From positions 1 through 64,000 of the forward strand of contig JAHBTG010000003.1 of assembly GCA_019638695.1 (NCBI GenBank): a DNA stretch of 64,000 nucleotides. The letters run 5' to 3'. Under the pieces are notes generated by a model. That model was not told the DNA's origin. It saw only the letters and a list, made by a program, of their open reading frames with translations, and did not search any database. Source of the stretch: Bacteroidota bacterium (lineage in GTDB: Bacteria > Bacteroidota > Bacteroidia > J057 > JAJTIE01). This document shows positions 1-33,882 of the stretch, in pieces. The translations under genes and the position numbers were made by a program. Numbering within the stretch: the first letter of the stretch is position 1; every line of letters starts with the position of its first letter.

Positions 1-3000
1 TGGCCTCCATCGGGGAAAAGCTCAAGTTCCGTATCAACTATGATACTGAGGCCACATTTGGTTTTGAGAACCAGATGAAGATCAACTACCAGGGCAATGA
101 GGATGATATCATCAAGGCCATAGAGGCCGGGAACGTGAGCATGCCCATCAACGGCACACTGATCACCGGCGGGCAGAACCTATTTGGCGTGAAAGTGGTC
201 ACACAATGGGGGCCGGTGTGGGTGACCACACTGGCCAGTATCCAGCGCGGTAAAACGGAAGAAGTGAGTGTGCGCGGCGGGTCCCAGGAAACCCAGTTCC
301 TGGTAGAGTCTGCCCAGTATGACATGAACCGCCATTTCTTCCTGGCGCATCACTTCCGCCACCTATATGAGCAGAACCTGCGCAACCTGCCGCTGGTTAA
401 CAGCCCCATTAACATCAACCGGGTGGAGGTATGGGTAACGAATAAATTTAACCGGGATAATACCAACACCCGTAACTGCGTGGGATTGCCAGACCTGGGC
501 GAGAATGCACCGCTCCCCAGTGCAACAGACCCCCAGACGGGCGCCAGCAGCCCCCGCGGAGGACGGCTATTGCAAACAGATCCTACCATTATCCAAACCA
601 ACCCGGGATTTAATTCTCCCGATAACAGCGCAAACTCTCTCTACCAGACCATCAACAGCACACCCGGCACCCGGGAGCGCACCACCGTCAAAACGGCCCT
701 CACCAGCCTGCAACTGGTAGAAGAACAGGATTTTGAGATATACCAGAACATGCGGCGGCTGAACGAAACGGAATACACGCTCAACCGCCAGCTGGGTTTT
801 ATCTCGCTCAACTCCCAGTTACAGGATGATGAGGCGGTATATGTGGCTTTTGAATATACCCTGGCAGGCGACCAGCGGGTCTTCAGGGTAGGAGAATTTT
901 CGATAGACCAAACGGAGAATCAGACCGCCCCCACAGTCATTTTCCTGAAAATGCTGAAGCCCGGACGGCAGGCGGTCACCACCAATGACGGGCGCCAGTT
1001 CCCCACTTGGGACCTGATGATGAAGAACGTCTACAGCATCGGCGGGTTCAACATCCAGCCGGATGGTTTCAACTTCGAGGTATTCTACCAGAGCACAGAC
1101 GGCAGCGGAGATATCAACTACCTGCCGGGCAGCGATGTGGCCAACCGCCCGCTCATGCAGGTATTCGGCATAGACCGCCTGACGAATAACAGCGAACTGG
1201 GGCCAGACAGCCGCTTTGACTTTATCCCCGGCATTACCATTCTGCCAGACAAGGGAGTGATGATCTTCCCGGTGCTGGAACCGTTCGGGCAACACCTGGC
1301 CAACCAGTTTCGCAACAACCGCACGGAAGACTCTATCCGCTACGCCTTTACCCCGCTCTACCGCCGCACACAGCAGGACGCCATCCAGTTCTCTCCCCAG
1401 CTCAACCGCTTCCGCATGAAAGGCAAGTACGCGGCAAAGTCCAGCTCCGAGATCTACCTCAATACCGTGCAGCTCACACCCGGCTCCGTAAAAGTATTGA
1501 GCGGTGGGCGGCAACTGATGGAGGGTGTGGACTATACCGTAGACTACCAGATAGGCAAGGTAACCATTATCAACCCCGGTATCCTCTCCAGCGGGCAGGA
1601 CATCAGCGTGAAGTTTGAGACCAATACCCTGTTCGGGATAGACCAGAAGACGATGCTGGGGGCACGGGTGGAATACCGCGTGAATAAAGATGTGCAGTTT
1701 GGCACCACCGTCCTGCACCTCAATGAGCGGCCGCTGATCAATAAGATCATCATTGGCGAAGAGCCTATTTCCAATACTGTTTACGGTTTCGATGCGGCCA
1801 TTCGCAAAGAAAGCCGGGCGCTTACCAACCTGCTGGACAAGCTGCCCTTCTTCGATACCAAGGCGCCGTCAGACATCCAGTTCAACGGGGAGTTTGCCCA
1901 GATACTGCCCAATATGCCCCGCCAGGTGCGCACAGATAATGAGAACGGCATTGCCTATATAGATGATTTTGAGGGCGCCCGCAACACCATAGACCTCATG
2001 GGTTTCACCTTCTGGAAGGTAGCCAGCCGCCCCAGCCACCGTTTCCCGCTGGAAGGCGGCGATATATTGTCCAGCGGATACCGCCGGGCCAAGCTGGCGT
2101 GGTATATGATAGACCCGGTGTTCTTTGACCAGCCCCGCCAGTTTGGGTTCGATGAAAGCAGCGCCAGCCTCAACGATCACTACACCCGCCGGGTAAGCCC
2201 CATAGAAGTATACCCCGGGCGGGACTTCAATGCCGGCAACAATATCCTCACCACCTTTGACCTGCACTACTGGCCGGAACGCCGGGGGATGTACAACCTG
2301 GAGAGCAGGGCCAGCAGGCTAAACCCCGATGGCACCTTTACCAACCCGGATGATAACTGGGCGGGCATCATGCGCCGAACCGCCAGTAACACAGACTTTG
2401 AGGCCGCCAACTTTGAGTTCGTGGAGTTCTGGATCATGGATCCCTACCTCAACAGCCCCAGCCATGAGGGAGGCGACCTCTATCTGAACCTGGGACGCGT
2501 GAGCGAGGACATCCTGAACGACGGCAGCCTGAGCGCAGAGCATGGCCTGCCCGCACGCCAGGATCTCAAAGACCAGGGAATAGGCTTCACCGAAACAGAC
2601 TGGGGGCGCATCCCCAGCCAGCCGCCACCCACCAGCGCATTCGATAACAGTCCGGACGCCCGCGCCCTGCAGGATGTGGGACTGGATGGCCTGCAGGATG
2701 GCGAAGAGCAGCAAAAGTTTGCCGCCAAACTGGCCGAAGCTCAGGCGGTACTCAACGGCGAGGCTTACGCCGTGCTATCCAATGACCCCTGTTCGGATAA
2801 CTATGCACACTTCCGCGAGGAATCGCGCTATGGCAATGGCACCCCCATACTGGACCGCTATGAGCATTTTAATGGTGTGCAAGGCAACAGCCCCCTGAAC
2901 GAGGCCGGGGCGCAGTTCAGTAAAATGGCAACACCCAACCCGGATATTGAGGACCTGAACTCCGACGGCAAGATCTCCAGCGAGGAGCAGTTCTATGAGT

Positions 3001-6000
3001 ACCGCGTCTCCATGCGGCGCACCGACCTGGTAGTGGGCCAGAACTACGTGGTAGACCGCCGCACCGAGACCATCCAGACCCCCGATAAAAGCCAGAAGCA
3101 AGTGGTATGGTACCAGATCCGGGTGCCGCTTCGCTCGGGCACACCCATAGGGAACATAGCGGACTTCAAGAGCATGAACTTCATCCGCATGTACCTCACC
3201 AATTTCAACGAAGAGGTCATCCTGCGTTTCGGCAAGTTTGACCTGGTAGCCACGCAATGGCGCACCTACCGGGATGACCTGCGCCCCGGCGGACCCATAC
3301 TGGATGAAGAACCGATCGACCGCCTGGCCAACTTCAGCCTGGGGACTATTAACGTAGAGGAAAACACCAACCGGCAGCCCTTCCCCTATGTGACACCCCC
3401 GGATATCATCCGCCAGATCACTCCGCAGGCGCAGCAAGTGGGCCTGCGGATGAATGAGCAGGCGCTGATAATGCGGGTAACCGAGCTGGAAGAAGGTGAT
3501 GCCCGCGGCGTATTCAAAACCCTGAACCTGGACCTGCGTAATTACCAGCGGCTCAAGATGTGGCTGCACGCAGAGCCCCTGAGCGGCGAATGCGCCAACC
3601 CGGCCTTTGCCACCTGCGGCGATGCCGAGATCTTTGTACGGCTGGGTACGGACCTCAACGAGAACTTCTATGAGTACCGCATGCCCCTCTGTCCCTCTCC
3701 GCCCGGCAGCACCGGGGAGCGGGAGATCTGGGCCAATGACCTGAACCTGGAACTGGCCAACCTCAACCGCGCCAAGTTCCTGCGCAACGAAGCAGTGGAG
3801 CTGGGTACCCGCTCCATCTTGCAGCCCTATGAATATGCCATAGGAGACGGCACCACTGTAGTTGTACAAGGCACTCCGCAGCTCAACTCCGTGAAGAACA
3901 TCATGATAGGCATCCGCAATCCATCCAACAACGGGCAGCCGGTGTGTATGGAGGTATGGGCCAATGAATTGCGGGTAACGGATTTCGTCAACCGGGCCGG
4001 CTGGGCAGTCAATGCCCGCGTAAACATCAAGCTGGCAGACTTGGGCAGCGTAAGCATGGCGGTACAGCACAGTACCGCAGGCTTTGGCGGGCTGGAGCAG
4101 CGCATCAACCAGCGCGCCCTGGAAACCGTGACACAATATGACCTGGCCACCAGCCTCAATATGGGACGCCTGCTGCCCAAAGAGGCGCGGCTGGAGCTGC
4201 CCGTGTATTTTACCATGAGCGAGCGTTTTGTCAACCCGCTCTTTAACCCCAATGACCCGGATATTCTCCTGGAAGATGCCAAGACACTGATCTCACCCGA
4301 GAACCAGGCACAGTTTGTCAAAGACCGCCAGGACTACACCAAGACCTGGGGCTATGCCCTGAACAATGTGCGCCGCCTGGCGCGGGAAGGCAACAAGAAA
4401 ATAAAACCCTGGAGCTTGGCCAACTTTAGCTTTACTTACGGGTTTAACGAACGATACCATACTAATACCCAGATTCAAAGCCATATCAACCGCACCTGGA
4501 ACGGCAGCATCAACTACACCTATAACCTGAATCCCAAGGCCATAGAGCCCTTTAAGAACATTGGCAAGAAGCCCAACCTGCTCAATGAGTTCAACTTCTT
4601 CCTCATGCCCAAATCAGTGTCTATGCGCATGGAAGGGCTGCGCCGCTATGATGAGCTGATCTATCGCCAGTTATCCCGCAACCAGCGGCCGCTGTCGCCG
4701 GTGTATAACCAGGACTTTACCATTACCCGCAGTTACCAGGTGCGCTGGGATTTCACCCGCAGCCTGTCTATGAACTACAGCGCCACCAATATCGGGCGGG
4801 TGGACGAGCCCCGCGGACGCCTGGACACTCCTGAAAAACGAGACTCGCTCTTGCAGAACATCCTCTACCTGGGGCGCAACCCGGAACTGGGGAAAGACCA
4901 GCTTGTGAACCTTGGGCGAAACATTTCTTTCCAGCAGAACGTGGCTTTCACGTATCGTCTGCCCTTTGACAAGATTTCCTACCTCAACTGGATAACCGGC
5001 AGTGTGAACTACACGGTAGACTACCGCTGGCTCACGGCAGCCCTGCAGAACCAGGACCTGGGTAACCGCATCTCCAATACACGCAGCATCCAGAGCACGG
5101 GGCAGCTCAATATGGCCCAACTGTACAAGAAATTCCCCGCGGTAGAACGCTGGCTGTCGCCTGTCAAAGACAAGAATATCATCTCCAAGGCAGACAGCTC
5201 CCGTGAGGAGGGCGACGATGCCTATGTGGGGCTTCTGGTCCTAAGCAAGACGGTAGCCCGCTGGGTATTCAGCATACAAACCATTGATGTGAGCTATGCG
5301 GTGAACCAGGGTACCAACCTGCCCGGCTACCTGCCGCGTACGAATAACTTCGGGATGGACTGGGACTATCCCGATTCCCTGGGCGGCGGGTCCTACAACG
5401 CTCCGGGACTTCCCTTCCTGCTGGGCTGGCAACCCAACCTGGAGCCCGGCGGGTGGGTGAATGAAGCGGGCGCCCGGGGGTGGTTCAGCCGGGATTCCAC
5501 CCTGATAAACCCCTATAACCAGACGGACAGCCGGCAACTGACCATCCGCACTTCACTGGAACTGTTCAAGGGTTTCCGTTTTGATGTGAACGTGGACCGC
5601 TCTCAGAGCTGGAATGCGAACGGCATGTACACCTTCTCACCCAGCCAGAACGATTATGTATTCTCCAACCGCCAGCTGAACGGCACCTTCAGCATGACCA
5701 CATTTACCATGTTTACGGCTTTTGAAGCAGGAGGAGATGTGAGCAAAGCTTTTGCGGAGTTTGACAATAACCGCCGCATCATTTCCAAGCGCCTGGCCGA
5801 AACCAATCCTGCTTACATGAACGCCTCAGGTTACGGGCAGGTAGCCAGCCTGACCAATGCCAGTGCCAATGGTTATTATAACGGGTACCTGGGCAATAAC
5901 CAGGATGTACTGATCCCGGCCTTCCTCTCGGCATATGGCCCCTATAATGTGAACCGTGTGCGGCTGGATGCGTTTCCGGCCATACCGCTGCCCAACTGGA

Positions 6001-6731
6001 ACGCCACCTTTAACGGCCTGGGCGAAATCCCATGGTTTAAACAACGCTTCCGCAGTGTCACCCTCCGTCACGGATACCGCAGTATCTACAGCACGGGATA
6101 TATGCTGAACCTGAACAACTATGATATTGACGGCAATGGTATCCCGGACTCCAACAACGTGGTGGGCGAGGGGTATTACTTTGGAGATCCTACGGCGCTG
6201 GTAACGGTCTATAACCTGCAGACAGAGAACCTGATCACCAACATCATGATCCAGGAGCAGTTTACCCCCCTGGTAGGGCTCAACTTTGCGTGGAAGAACG
6301 GCATCACCACCACGCTGGACTTCAAACGCAGCCGCAGCCTGGCGCTGAACATTGGCGCCATGCAGCTGGCCGAAGCCCGGAATACAGAGTTCTCCCTGAA
6401 CCTTAGCTACCGCAAAGACGGGTTACTGCCCAGCTTCACCCTGTTTGGCAAAGCGCGGCAAATGAAGAACACCATCACCTTCCGCTTTGAGACGACGGTC
6501 CGCTCTATCCGCATGGCCAACCGCAAGCTTGACAGCCTGGAACCGCCCCTGCCCACCGGAGGCAACCTGAACCTGGTGATCAAACCCGGCATCGATTATA
6601 TGATCAGTACCCAGATCACGGCCCGTGCTTACGTGGAACATAACCGCAATACCCCGGTCATCTCCACCAGTTTCCCCACCAGTTTCACGGCCATAGGCGT
6701 GCAGATACAGTTCAACCTCACCAGTCTGTAA
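1..6731 (+). CDS. sprA: SprA, T9SS outer-membrane translocon (5' truncated by window)
   Basis: Open from the first base of the window (codons begin at base 3), so the true start lies upstream; about 2240 residues are visible, close to the full 2300-2500 residues of SprA (Sov in Porphyromonas). SprA is the giant beta-barrel pore through which T9SS substrates cross the outer membrane and it is needed for gliding. The visible part opens with a GEKLKF...TEATFGFENQ-type block typical of SprA, and is rich in alternating aromatic/polar strands and in repeated 'DDFEGARN', 'YINLGRVSED'-like segments characteristic of the family. It ends in a beta-strand-rich C-terminus (QIQFNLTSL). The next gene follows after 117 bp with no clear terminator. 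It supports the presence of a T9SS, as does the tail on the secreted protein at 31752-33062. Confidence 0.93.
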   Translation, partial: ASIGEKLKFRINYDTEATFGFENQMKINYQGNEDDIIKAIEAGNVSMPINGTLITGGQNLFGVKVVTQWGPVWVTTLASIQRGKTEEVSVRGGSQETQFLVESAQYDMNRHFFLAHHFRHLYEQNLRNLPLVNSPININRVEVWVTNKFNRDNTNTRNCVGLPDLGENAPLPSATDPQTGASSPRGGRLLQTDPTIIQTNPGFNSPDNSANSLYQTINSTPGTRERTTVKTALTSLQLVEEQDFEIYQNMRRLNETEYTLNRQLGFISLNSQLQDDEAVYVAFEYTLAGDQRVFRVGEFSIDQTENQTAPTVIFLKMLKPGRQAVTTNDGRQFPTWDLMMKNVYSIGGFNIQPDGFNFEVFYQSTDGSGDINYLPGSDVANRPLMQVFGIDRLTNNSELGPDSRFDFIPGITILPDKGVMIFPVLEPFGQHLANQFRNNRTEDSIRYAFTPLYRRTQQDAIQFSPQLNRFRMKGKYAAKSSSEIYLNTVQLTPGSVKVLSGGRQLMEGVDYTVDYQIGKVTIINPGILSSGQDISVKFETNTLFGIDQKTMLGARVEYRVNKDVQFGTTVLHLNERPLINKIIIGEEPISNTVYGFDAAIRKESRALTNLLDKLPFFDTKAPSDIQFNGEFAQILPNMPRQVRTDNENGIAYIDDFEGARNTIDLMGFTFWKVASRPSHRFPLEGGDILSSGYRRAKLAWYMIDPVFFDQPRQFGFDESSASLNDHYTRRVSPIEVYPGRDFNAGNNILTTFDLHYWPERRGMYNLESRASRLNPDGTFTNPDDNWAGIMRRTASNTDFEAANFEFVEFWIMDPYLNSPSHEGGDLYLNLGRVSEDILNDGSLSAEHGLPARQDLKDQGIGFTETDWGRIPSQPPPTSAFDNSPDARALQDVGLDGLQDGEEQQKFAAKLAEAQAVLNGEAYAVLSNDPCSDNYAHFREESRYGNGTPILDRYEHFNGVQGNSPLNEAGAQFSKMATPNPDIEDLNSDGKISSEEQFYEYRVSMRRTDLVVGQNYVVDRRTETIQTPDKSQKQVVWYQIRVPLRSGTPIGNIADFKSMNFIRMYLTNFNEEVILRFGKFDLVATQWRTYRDDLRPGGPILDEEPIDRLANFSLGTINVEENTNRQPFPYVTPPDIIRQITPQAQQVGLRMNEQALIMRVTELEEGDARGVFKTLNLDLRNYQRLKMWLHAEPLSGECANPAFATCGDAEIFVRLGTDLNENFYEYRMPLCPSPPGSTGEREIWANDLNLELANLNRAKFLRNEAVELGTRSILQPYEYAIGDGTTVVVQGTPQLNSVKNIMIGIRNPSNNGQPVCMEVWANELRVTDFVNRAGWAVNARVNIKLADLGSVSMAVQHSTAGFGGLEQRINQRALETVTQYDLATSLNMGRLLPKEARLELPVYFTMSERFVNPLFNPNDPDILLEDAKTLISPENQAQFVKDRQDYTKTWGYALNNVRRLAREGNKKIKPWSLANFSFTYGFNERYHTNTQIQSHINRTWNGSINYTYNLNPKAIEPFKNIGKKPNLLNEFNFFLMPKSVSMRMEGLRRYDELIYRQLSRNQRPLSPVYNQDFTITRSYQVRWDFTRSLSMNYSATNIGRVDEPRGRLDTPEKRDSLLQNILYLGRNPELGKDQLVNLGRNISFQQNVAFTYRLPFDKISYLNWITGSVNYTVDYRWLTAALQNQDLGNRISNTRSIQSTGQLNMAQLYKKFPAVERWLSPVKDKNIISKADSSREEGDDAYVGLLVLSKTVARWVFSIQTIDVSYAVNQGTNLPGYLPRTNNFGMDWDYPDSLGGGSYNAPGLPFLLGWQPNLEPGGWVNEAGARGWFSRDSTLINPYNQTDSRQLTIRTSLELFKGFRFDVNVDRSQSWNANGMYTFSPSQNDYVFSNRQLNGTFSMTTFTMFTAFEAGGDVSKAFAEFDNNRRIISKRLAETNPAYMNASGYGQVASLTNASANGYYNGYLGNNQDVLIPAFLSAYGPYNVNRVRLDAFPAIPLPNWNATFNGLGEIPWFKQRFRSVTLRHGYRSIYSTGYMLNLNNYDIDGNGIPDSNNVVGEGYYFGDPTALVTVYNLQTENLITNIMIQEQFTPLVGLNFAWKNGITTTLDFKRSRSLALNIGAMQLAEARNTEFSLNLSYRKDGLLPSFTLFGKARQMKNTITFRFETTVRSIRMANRKLDSLEPPLPTGGNLNLVIKPGIDYMISTQITARAYVEHNRNTPVISTSFPTSFTAIGVQIQFNLTSL

Positions 6732-28457: not shown

Positions 28458-29060
28458 ATGGGTACGCTGTTCTTTTCATTGTTTCTTGCGCTTATTGGAG
28501 ACCTGACTCCTACCCAACCGCCGGCACCGGCCGAGAAAGTGGCGGTGAGCTTTCACTTGGATAACATGGCGGCCTTTGACGCCCTGGCTTATCTGAATGA
28601 AATCCGCGAGCACCCCCATAGCTATGTAAACGAACTGGGAGTGGAGCTCCAGGGGGTGCCAGTCTATCTTTCTCGCCTGCGGGTGAACCCGGTATTGATG
28701 CAGGTGGCAGAACAAAAAGCGCTGGACATGGCGCAAAGGGACTACTTTGCACATGTAGACCCGGACGGAGTGGGCATTAATCTGCGCATGCATGAGGCCG
28801 GGTATGCCCTGCCGGAGCCCTGGCGGGATGAACCCCATGAAAACAACTTTGAGAGCCTGGCTGCCGGCTTGCCGGACGGCCGCCAGACCATCCGGGCGCT
28901 TATCGTAGACGATGGTGTACCGGGCTTACAGCACCGCAAGCATTTGCTGGGACTCACCCGCTTCTATGCCGGGTGCACAGATGTGGGCATTGCCTTTGTA
29001 CGCGCCAGAGGCACTGTCTTCCGCACGTATTGCTGCATTATCATCGCACGCCAGTATTAG
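28458..29060 (+). CDS. CAP-domain (SCP/PR-1) exported protein
   Basis: 200 residues. A hydrophobic N-terminus (MGTLFFSLFLALIGDL) is a likely signal peptide or anchor. The CAP core begins at about residue 40 (ALAYLNEIREHPHSYV) and contains the family motifs: QVAEQKALDMAQRDYFAHVDPDGVGINLRMHEAGY (His of the AHVDP motif), ENNFESLAAG, and HRKHLLGLTRFYAGCTDVGIAFV. Bacterial CAP proteins are extracytoplasmic and bind lipids or are of unknown function. It has a clear terminator. A second CAP gene lies at 33075-33767 on the other strand. Confidence 0.82.
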   Translation: MGTLFFSLFLALIGDLTPTQPPAPAEKVAVSFHLDNMAAFDALAYLNEIREHPHSYVNELGVELQGVPVYLSRLRVNPVLMQVAEQKALDMAQRDYFAHVDPDGVGINLRMHEAGYALPEPWRDEPHENNFESLAAGLPDGRQTIRALIVDDGVPGLQHRKHLLGLTRFYAGCTDVGIAFVRARGTVFRTYCCIIIARQY

Positions 29061-31348: not shown

Positions 31349-31379
31349 TTGTATATCACTGGCGCTCAGGTTATATTTG
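31349..31379 (+). promoter_or_regulatory. Promoter of the cobalamin riboswitch transcript
   Basis: -33 TTG (31349-31351), exactly 20 bp, perfect -7 TATATTTG (31372-31379). Predicted start near 31383, about 20 nt before the riboswitch begins. Confidence 0.75.
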
Positions 31380-31400
31380 CAGCGGTTCTTTGCTTTTGTG

Positions 31401-31585
31401 CAACAGGTGTCTGAAAAAAGCCTTTTTTCAAAGGAAACTCAGATGAAAAGGGAATACCGGTGCAATACCGGAGCTGTGCCCGCAACTGTAACTGTCGTAG
31501 CGCTTTAGGCAATCAACCACTGCACCTGCAGAAGGTGTGGGAAGGAGCCTGAAGGAGGACAGGAGCCAGGAGACCTGCCTGTTTC
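31401..31585 (+). promoter_or_regulatory. Cobalamin (B12, AdoCbl) riboswitch
   Basis: All hallmarks are present in order: the 5' arm CAGGTGTC (31403-31412 region) that pairs with the 3' GACCTGCCTG, an A-rich linker, GGGAATACCGGTGCAATACCGG, GCCCGCAACTGTAA, CCACTG, GGGAAGG, and a complete B12 box AGCCAGGAGACCTGCC at 31564-31579. The orientation is plus, so the regulated gene is the secreted protein starting 167 nt downstream at 31752. Such switches normally turn expression off when cobalamin is plentiful. In Bacteroidota they usually precede btuB-type receptors, btuG-type surface lipoproteins or cobalamin synthesis genes; none of these is seen here. Confidence 0.93.
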
Positions 31586-31751
31586 ACTCAACAGTAACGG
31601 CCTTCGGGACCAATTGCCGCTGCTGGAAACTCCTCCTTTTTTCTTCCTGTAGCGATTTTTGTCTCAAGGGCTTGGGTCCCCATATTGACCCTGCAAGGGT
31701 GTGTATTCCGGCGTGGTGTATGTCCATCACAGTTCTGTTTACCTCACTCCT

Positions 31752-33062
31752 ATGCATACACCTGTTTTTTACTTCCTGCTCTGCTTCTGCTTCCCTTTCA
31801 CGGGTTTTGCGCAAAACCTGGTACCCAACCCCAGTTTTGAAGACTACCTCGGTACCACAGCCTGTGGCAGCGGTGGCCACACCTGGACCAGTTACACCAC
31901 AGGCGTGGGCTCCTGCACCGCGGGGAGCGGCACTTTTCAGCGCCTGCATTGCACGCTCAACGGAGGATGGTATGAGCCGGGCGGCGGCAGTACGGACGTC
32001 TATACCACCTGCAATTGTACTGCAACCGGCACGGGCACTTTCCGCTGCCAGGGCCAGAACACCCTTTTTGCCGGTGACGCCGTGCCTATGCAACAAGGTA
32101 GCGCCTGCATCTGGCTGCGCAATTATGGATTACAGGATTACCTGGCAGTACCGCTGAGCGCTCCCCTGGAGCAGGGGAAAACCTATGACATCAGTGTATG
32201 GCTGCGGCTGTCTCCTCGCGCGCGCTTTCAGCACGATGGCTTTGGCATCCTCTTTACCCCTGCGGTGTATACCTGGGGCTGGTGGAGCAGCGCGCCGGCC
32301 GGCGCAACGGACCCCAAGCCCCAGTTCCCTGCCACTCCCTTCATGCTGAGCGACGCCGGCCAGTGGGTGGAGGTTGCGGGCACCTATACCGTGCCCGCAG
32401 GCAGTGACCTGACCCACCTGACACTGGGTACCTGGAAGACCTATGCCTCGTTCTCCATCCCTGCCAACAGCCTGTTGCCTGATGCGTCCAGCAACGCCGA
32501 TGCCGATTACTTTGTAGACAACCTGTCTATCACAGAAGCCAGCATATTGTCTGCAGATGAGATCCGCCTGCATGGCATATCCACTACCGAAGGCCACTGG
32601 CTGAGCGCGTACTCTTCTACCGAATGGCTGCAAGTAGAACTGCAGCACAGCCATGACGGCCAGCAGTTTCAAACCCTGCTCAGCCAGCACTCGGTACCCG
32701 GGGACTACCTGCAACCGGCATCTGCCCTGGCGGCCGGAGGACATTATTACCGGCTGCGCTGCCTGGATTGGGAGGGTACTGCGCATTACTCACCAGTGGT
32801 ATTCCTGCGGGCGGGCAGTCCTGCACCCAGGCTCGTATCTTCTCAATTACCTGCCGCAGGCGGATGGGTATTGCAGCATGCCTTGCCCAATGCCCGGGCA
32901 CACCTGCTGGACCCGTTGGGGCGCCAACACGCCTTGCGCCAGGAATACCCCCAGGCAGGCAGTCTTCAGCTGGTGCCGCCAGGCGGTCTTTCCAGCGGGC
33001 TGTACTTTTTATCCTATGCAGATGCGGAGGGACAGGCTACCTACAGGGTATGGGTGCCATAA
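31752..33062 (+). CDS. T9SS-secreted protein with NPSFE-type beta-sandwich, under a B12 riboswitch
   Basis: 436 residues from the ATG at 31752 (signal peptide MHTPVFYFLLCFCFPFTGFA before QNL). Residues 22-265: a jelly-roll domain that starts NLVPNPSFEDY and ends GQWVEVAGTYTVPAG...ADYFVDNLSI, a fold often used for ligand or carbohydrate binding; it has about eight Cys clustered between residues 30 and 130 (GSC, LHC, TTCNC, FRC). Residues 280-355: the common pre-CTD module (QVELQHSHDGQQFQTLL, YYRLRCLDWEGTAHYSPVV). The last 75 residues look like a type A T9SS sorting tail (LSSGLYFLSYADAEGQATYRVWV). The riboswitch suggests a role in cobalamin acquisition or a B12-independent alternative; no B12-binding motif is recognised. 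Confidence 0.8.
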   Translation: MHTPVFYFLLCFCFPFTGFAQNLVPNPSFEDYLGTTACGSGGHTWTSYTTGVGSCTAGSGTFQRLHCTLNGGWYEPGGGSTDVYTTCNCTATGTGTFRCQGQNTLFAGDAVPMQQGSACIWLRNYGLQDYLAVPLSAPLEQGKTYDISVWLRLSPRARFQHDGFGILFTPAVYTWGWWSSAPAGATDPKPQFPATPFMLSDAGQWVEVAGTYTVPAGSDLTHLTLGTWKTYASFSIPANSLLPDASSNADADYFVDNLSITEASILSADEIRLHGISTTEGHWLSAYSSTEWLQVELQHSHDGQQFQTLLSQHSVPGDYLQPASALAAGGHYYRLRCLDWEGTAHYSPVVFLRAGSPAPRLVSSQLPAAGGWVLQHALPNARAHLLDPLGRQHALRQEYPQAGSLQLVPPGGLSSGLYFLSYADAEGQATYRVWVP

Positions 33063-33074
33063 CTCCCAAGTCCG

Positions 33075-33767
33075 TTACTTGCAGCGCTCTGCCGCACCCT
33101 GCGGGTCTGCACTGTCGCTAAACCACACACAGGCGCTGCCCTTATAGATACCAATGCCAATACTTTTCCATTGGTTATCTTTCCATATGCCTTCATTCAC
33201 GATTACCGTATTATGCCCGCTGCTTTTTTTCCAGGCATCCAGGGCAGCGCTGGCAGAACGCACATCTCCATACGAAGGGTTCCCCCCGCCATATGAGATC
33301 TCAAAGCCATAGCCGGTGAATTTGCCTGCGGTAATTTCCTTGGGCTTATCCCACATGCACTGCGCCTGTTTGTGGTCCCGGGTATAGCAGCATCCTTTCC
33401 AGGTGTCGCCTTTTGAGCTCCAGCTATGGGAGTTGCACGGTTCCTGATCGGGACGATAGGTGACCACATCACGGGCATGGGTCTGCGCTACCAGGGTGAG
33501 CGAATAAGAAAGCGGAATGCGGGGCAGGCCCTTGCTGCGGCGATAGTCCATGATCAGCTCATAAAGCTCCATTTCCATGGGAGACAAGCACACCTGGGTT
33601 TTATCCGAGTCTTCAAAGTCTGCCTCAGGGGAAAACGGGAGGGTGTGGGCTGGGGAAGACACTACGGGCGGTTCAGGTGGCCGCATGGCAGTACCGAACA
33701 ACGACACTAATAGAATGATCACTACCAGGAAAAAGAGCTGGCCATACACTTTCAATAGCTTTTTCAT
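33075..33767 (-). CDS. Membrane-anchored CAP-domain (SCP/PR-1) protein
   Basis: 230 residues from the ATG at 33767 (MKKLLKVYGQLFFLVVIILLVSLFG, an N-terminal membrane anchor or uncleaved signal); an in-frame start 33 bp upstream is less likely. After a Pro-rich linker comes a CAP domain from residue 65: MELYELIMDYRRSKGLPRIPLSYSLTLVAQTHARDV, CNSHSWSSKG, CCYTRDH, GYGFEISYGG, AALDAWKKSSGHNTVIVN, WKSIGIGIYKGSACVWF. Six Cys suggest disulfides, hence a periplasmic or surface location. It converges with the riboswitch-controlled gene (12 bp gap). Function unknown. Confidence 0.82.
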   Translation of the reverse strand: MKKLLKVYGQLFFLVVIILLVSLFGTAMRPPEPPVVSSPAHTLPFSPEADFEDSDKTQVCLSPMEMELYELIMDYRRSKGLPRIPLSYSLTLVAQTHARDVVTYRPDQEPCNSHSWSSKGDTWKGCCYTRDHKQAQCMWDKPKEITAGKFTGYGFEISYGGGNPSYGDVRSASAALDAWKKSSGHNTVIVNEGIWKDNQWKSIGIGIYKGSACVWFSDSADPQGAAERCK

Positions 33768-33882
33768 GAGAATTCGGAAGATGGATTTAACGCCATACAA
33801 GCAAAGGTTATACCAATCTGTCCGTCTTCAAGCGAATGATTACCCGAATTATCCGCATGTGCACAACAATAAGCCAAATGCC

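Follow-up and report, generated by a model that had tools for sequence, protein, structure and literature searches.

A cobalamin riboswitch in the window, that is, the whole 64,000 nt stretch of DNA from an uncultured Bacteroidota bacterium that is analysed here, precedes a single gene for a predicted secreted protein, P0001, and relatives of P0001 lie behind riboswitches of their own in four other lineages. This recurrence suggests that these surface proteins belong to a family not described before, which would be produced under B12 shortage and whose role is probably to catch B12. Because the single target of the switch is a secreted binding-type domain, a corrinoid-capture accessory is the simplest reading, and we put the probability that P0001, secreted or at the surface, captures corrinoids in the manner of BtuG, BtuH and BtuJ but as a member of a different family, at roughly 0.6.

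The riboswitch and the protein behind it

The preliminary description of this DNA had recognised a full B12 riboswitch, and Rfam agrees: the RF00174 aptamer scores 104.4 bits over the whole covariance model, against a gathering cut-off of 31.5, it is the only match in an Rfam scan of the 64 kb window, and the landmarks named in that description lie where it had placed them. The features are as follows, the last being on another contig of the same genome.

31349-31379, +, promoter-like site TTG-N20-TATATTTG, read from the sequence
31388-31596, +, cobalamin riboswitch aptamer RF00174 (cmscan 104.4 bits, E 4.5e-25, model positions 1-189 of 189)
from 31479, +, CCCGCAACTG, read from the sequence
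31479-31483, +, L5 loop CCCGC, its CCCG complementary to the CGGG of L13
31539-31545, +, GGGAAGG, read from the sequence
31564-31579, +, B12 box AGCCAGGAGACCTGCC, read from the sequence
31592-31625, +, P13 hairpin with loop CGGG at 31605-31608 (region fold and six-leader alignment)
31637-31642, +, T-run 3' of the P13 hairpin (region fold and six-leader alignment)
31752-33062, +, gene predicted to be under riboswitch control, the switch being followed by this gene alone; product P0001, a predicted secreted protein of 436 aa
31752-31811, +, putative signal peptide, residues 1-20 (by eye, a hydrophobic stretch before QNLVPNPSFE)
31812-32540, +, jelly-roll domain with altered site residues Q128, A132, T227 and Y231 (AF2, mean pLDDT 75.7; alignments and signature)
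32901-33059, +, C-terminal tail (residues 384-436, approximately) of a degenerate T9SS type A-like form (tail-profile score)
G000:C46:333-1616 (L002/L069), first gene behind the genome's second switch, BtuG-type propeller with T9SS tail

The riboswitch is genuine and its L5-L13 kissing contact is intact. The two loops are complementary in all six aligned leaders (the window and five others), and in four of them (C46, L210, L215 and L218) a compensatory change has turned CCCGC/CGGG into CGCGC/CGCG. Because the pair is kept, with this compensatory change in four leaders, the window switch looks functional. The putative promoter (TTG at 31349-31351, a 20 nt spacer and TATATTTG at 31372-31379) fits the Bacteroidota promoter consensus, and a leader of 156 nt runs from the end of the aptamer to the ATG at 31752. 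As had been proposed, the switch is predicted to control this one gene only, the next one downstream (33075-33800) being on the minus strand. By eye, two CAP/SCP-like secreted proteins are encoded nearby, one by this minus-strand gene and the other at 28458-29060 on the plus strand.

The T9SS sorting tail read in P0001 by the preliminary description is weakly recognisable. The tail scores 6.7 bits with a locally built T9SS tail profile, the best of 1000 shuffles reaching 4.7, and three relatives (L210, L215 and L218) have clear, significant TIGR04183/PF18962 tails; but that of P0001 is degenerate and matches neither TIGR04183 in NCBIfam nor PF18962 in Pfam. By the same curated models the relative in genome G002 lacks such a tail. 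P0001 may be exported by type IX secretion; SprA is encoded at window positions 3-6722. A jelly roll with about eight clustered cysteines had also been claimed. AF2 models a jelly roll, and the domain has seven cysteines, but richness in cysteine is not a family trait: at most two of the seven fall on superfamily-wide Cys columns, one clearly and one only after an alignment shift, and the others are not common to the relatives and are lineage-specific. Metal binding by a Cys-rich P0001 was rejected, since the Cys columns are not conserved in the relatives.

Recurrence, fold and the altered site

Four relatives of P0001 each lie directly behind an RF00174 of their own, on the same strand and as the first gene of the transcript, so that the outcome which the preliminary description named as refuting its proposal, homologues without any tie to B12 switches, was not obtained. 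They come from Crocinitomicaceae (L210), a Chitinophagales MAG (L215), Flavobacteriales UBA5422 (L218) and G002 (L205), all of them other families or orders of Bacteroidota than that of the window genome. G002 belongs to another family of the same order, and its sole switch is followed by its only homologue of the jelly-roll domain. In the five members the gap between switch and start codon is similar (156 nt in the window, then 137, 156, 150 and 131 nt). A scan of GTDB genomes for the domain gave 80 loci. In four of them, L205 (the same genome as G002), L210, L215 and L218, an RF00174 of 87-100 bits lies immediately ahead of the gene and on its strand. A further match behind a switch, in L189, was left uncounted, being a generic OmpA-type protein and the fourth gene. 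Among the distinct domain copies in the scanned loci, 5 of 157 have a switch upstream, whereas a rough rate of 1.5 switches for every 3000 genes would predict about 0.1 (P of the order of 1e-6 or below). This figure is a guide only, since copies had been collected for their resemblance to two of the switch-linked proteins. A contig scan with P0001 alone as the query gave no match. The riboswitch-linked profile, run at strict E-values against 46 genomes of the order of G237 and 396 genomes of the phylum, found no further member, a result that leaves room for divergent members because the window's own genome also went unreported at that cut-off. The open-access papers found do not mention an association of switch and jelly roll.

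The riboswitch-linked proteins appear to form a small branch of a very large, unnamed jelly-roll superfamily, which has the motif NLVPNPSFE...W..P...DYFN.C...REY, is very common across Bacteroidota and occurs in 243 of 395 genomes of the class, mostly without B12 control. Neither Pfam nor NCBIfam has a family that recognises the domain above its cut-off, and no PDB chain matches it by sequence; with CBM_4_9 (PF02018), P0001 reaches 21.8 bits and the domain 25.0, below the gathering score of 25.9. AF2 gives a confident model of the L215 domain (pLDDT 94.4, pTM 0.91) and a weaker one of the window domain. Both models resemble CBM16, CBM4 and CBM22 modules and gingipain adhesin domains, and there is no B12 binder among the best 50 structural matches listed.

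A tree built from 100 domain copies places all five switch-linked members to the same side of a single branch (SH-aLRT 88), and none of 500 label shuffles on this tree was as low. With the window row and the five signature-region columns left out, the other four form one branch (SH-aLRT 95). When those columns are removed and the window row is kept, the free quick tree separates the window and the label needs two changes; a constraint holding all five together has a likelihood above that of the free quick tree and is not rejected (p-AU 0.947). Because the window row sits on a very long branch, its position depends in part on the signature and the switch. This signature concerns four positions: among the 95 other copies, 84 have R at the first, 73 have Q or E at the second, 79 have N at the third and 69 have D or N at the fourth. 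All four are lost in all five switch-linked proteins: R is replaced by Y, Y, Y, V and Q, Q/E by G or A, N by C, C, Y, I and T, and D by W in all but the window protein, which has Y. Both R and Q/E are missing from only three of the other 95 copies. We infer from the alignment that these changes have remodelled a putative binding site. In BtuJ the B12 pocket is lined by aromatic residues (PMC12751083, PMC13398666).

The fold, which is that of carbohydrate-binding modules, makes a glycan-binding adhesin the main rival to corrinoid capture. At low B12 the cell would display a carbohydrate-binding protein and attach to particles, algae or B12-supplying bacteria, and the sub-threshold CBM_4_9 matches, found in 16 of the 100 superfamily members, fit such a role, as does a parent superfamily that is a broad family of secreted domains. 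However, the polar positions that the superfamily conserves are exactly those altered in the switch-linked members, and other B12 switches in the order mostly precede genes for corrinoid uptake, the remaining kind of target being class I ribonucleotide reductase. We consider an adhesin unlikely.

The B12 regulon and the proposed role

Two cobalamin riboswitches are present in the window genome, which is 96% complete at 2.9 Mb. The propeller behind the second, on contig C46, carries its T9SS sorting tail in place of a lipoprotein anchor, and when this propeller is combined with four others that follow B12 switches, the resulting profile matches the BtuG structures 8bmx, 8baz and relatives at E values of about 1e-17 to 1e-18. 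No receptor gene was seen beside either switch, contig C46 ending shortly past the propeller gene. A profile search and reading of the locus found an unlinked BtuB-like receptor, ending in RAFPMPGR, on contig C101 (13593-15524); its identity as BtuB is probable and not certain because it scores only 52.6 bits with the BtuB profile. That BtuB is wholly absent (a first search had given weak matches, one of them in a heme-uptake locus) is rejected by this receptor. The earlier statement that the gene has no link to a TonB receptor is therefore correct by gene position, but has to be qualified by the C101 receptor and by the propeller that the other switch drives. Genome G001 has a switch before a T9SS propeller and G002 one before the jelly-roll protein, in both cases with a BtuB-like gene elsewhere. 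MetH, the B12-dependent methionine synthase, is present in the window genome. The genome also has a heme uptake-like locus (G000:C59:46000-52000, L339) with a T9SS-tailed protein, a TonB receptor, a lipoprotein and an ABC transporter of the HmuT/U/V type.

In the direction of regulation that we infer, the riboswitch would leave the leader open when corrinoids are scarce, and the 436-residue protein would be made and placed at the surface or secreted. Its N-terminal CBM-like jelly roll is predicted to bind corrinoids outside the cell, which would make more of them available locally to the receptor in the outer membrane. With plentiful corrinoid the aptamer would be bound, the L5-L13 contact would form and expression would stop. 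P0001 would work alongside the T9SS-tailed BtuG-type propeller and the unlinked BtuB-like receptor, feeding MetH.

A survey of the genes behind B12 switches (119 regions) found mostly BtuB and propellers. In the window's order, DUF4465 proteins with T9SS tails lie behind BtuB downstream of switches, and class I ribonucleotide reductase is a rarer target (G012 and G014). Several B12-riboswitch operons (L210, L218, L059, L062, L105, L115 and L149) include an acyl-CoA thioesterase of the 4HBT family, of about 128 aa. It is the gene next after the jelly-roll gene in two loci (L210:5367-5750 and L218:4167-4553), and elsewhere it follows BtuB, lies beside NrdB/NrdA (class I ribonucleotide reductase) or is the first gene; perhaps it relieves a build-up of acyl-CoA when a B12-dependent mutase stalls. 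In L133 (321-1856), L139, L145 and L191 the first gene behind the switch, which in at least some cases directly precedes BtuB, encodes a member of another secreted family in which the T9SS tail is the only Pfam domain; this family is a further candidate accessory.

The reductase and the thioesterase, both found under B12 switches, would also suit a B12-sparing or stress function for P0001, that is, a surface role in life without B12 or the capture of cobalt or another ligand and not of corrinoids. But P0001 appears to be secreted and has a binding-module fold in which no catalytic motif was recognised, and its extra cysteines are not conserved in the family, which makes such a function quite improbable. 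That the switch is the remnant of a lost btu operon, stranded by accident before the gene of an unrelated surface protein, could appeal to a superfamily common in Bacteroidota and to the lack of an adjacent receptor gene, but we reject this very improbable reading on its recurrence in four other genomes, the five being of different families and orders with the same arrangement, similar spacing, related proteins and the L5-L13 pairing kept.

Corrinoid capture is thus the reading that we prefer, and against it we count the CBM/gingipain-adhesin fold, the lack of a DUF4465 match, the long branch of the window protein and its degenerate T9SS tail. More tentatively, we propose an undescribed corrinoid-binding family that arose from a generic T9SS jelly roll by replacement of the polar site, and that serves as a T9SS-exported or released B12 scavenger from a single-gene regulon without a receptor. 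In environmental Bacteroidota the capture proteins appear to have shifted to type IX secretion and to be encoded alone, apart from the receptor, one of them being a member of a domain family unnamed in Pfam. Corrinoid binding, if true, would bring one more family to the B12 binders, and the replaced site would offer a sequence signature for separating B12 scavengers from other members of the superfamily.

Comparison with known B12 systems

The accessories of B12 uptake are well studied in gut Bacteroides, where they are lipoproteins encoded beside BtuB. One of them, BtuG, is a seven-bladed surface beta-propeller of the YncE type that caps BtuB. A T9SS-tailed propeller of the BtuG type shares the B12 regulon of the window genome, whereas P0001 is a jelly roll in its AF2 model, an unrelated fold, and is not encoded beside BtuB. 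The window switch is a full member of RF00174 with the L5-L13 contact, and the open-access papers found do not report its product family behind this switch. CBM4/CBM9, CBM16 and CBM22 modules have the fold of the window domain, which gives a weak CBM_4_9 profile match; the domain differs from them in falling below the Pfam cut-off, in its identity of 10-17%, in having no catalytic partner domain and in its control by B12.

Known B12-binding lipoproteins of Bacteroides are encoded in such riboswitch operons (PMC12751083, PMC8941943). Among these accessories, the surface B12-binding protein BtuH begins with PKD domains and ends in a globular binding domain, the latter reported to be without a known structural homologue (PMC8941943), and the profile of the window domain has no sequence match to the PDB chains of BtuH. 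BtuJ/DUF4465 proteins (PF14717, IPR027828) are augmented jelly-roll B12 binders (PMC12751083, PMC13398666), and the window protein is like them in its beta jelly roll, its predicted secreted or surface location and its control by a B12 riboswitch. Membership of DUF4465 was rejected, with no PF14717 match in P0001 or its relatives and an hhalign profile probability of 0.2%. The window domain also differs from BtuJ in having fold neighbours of the CBM16/4/22 type, and genes of its family lie alone or with the thioesterase and not behind BtuB.
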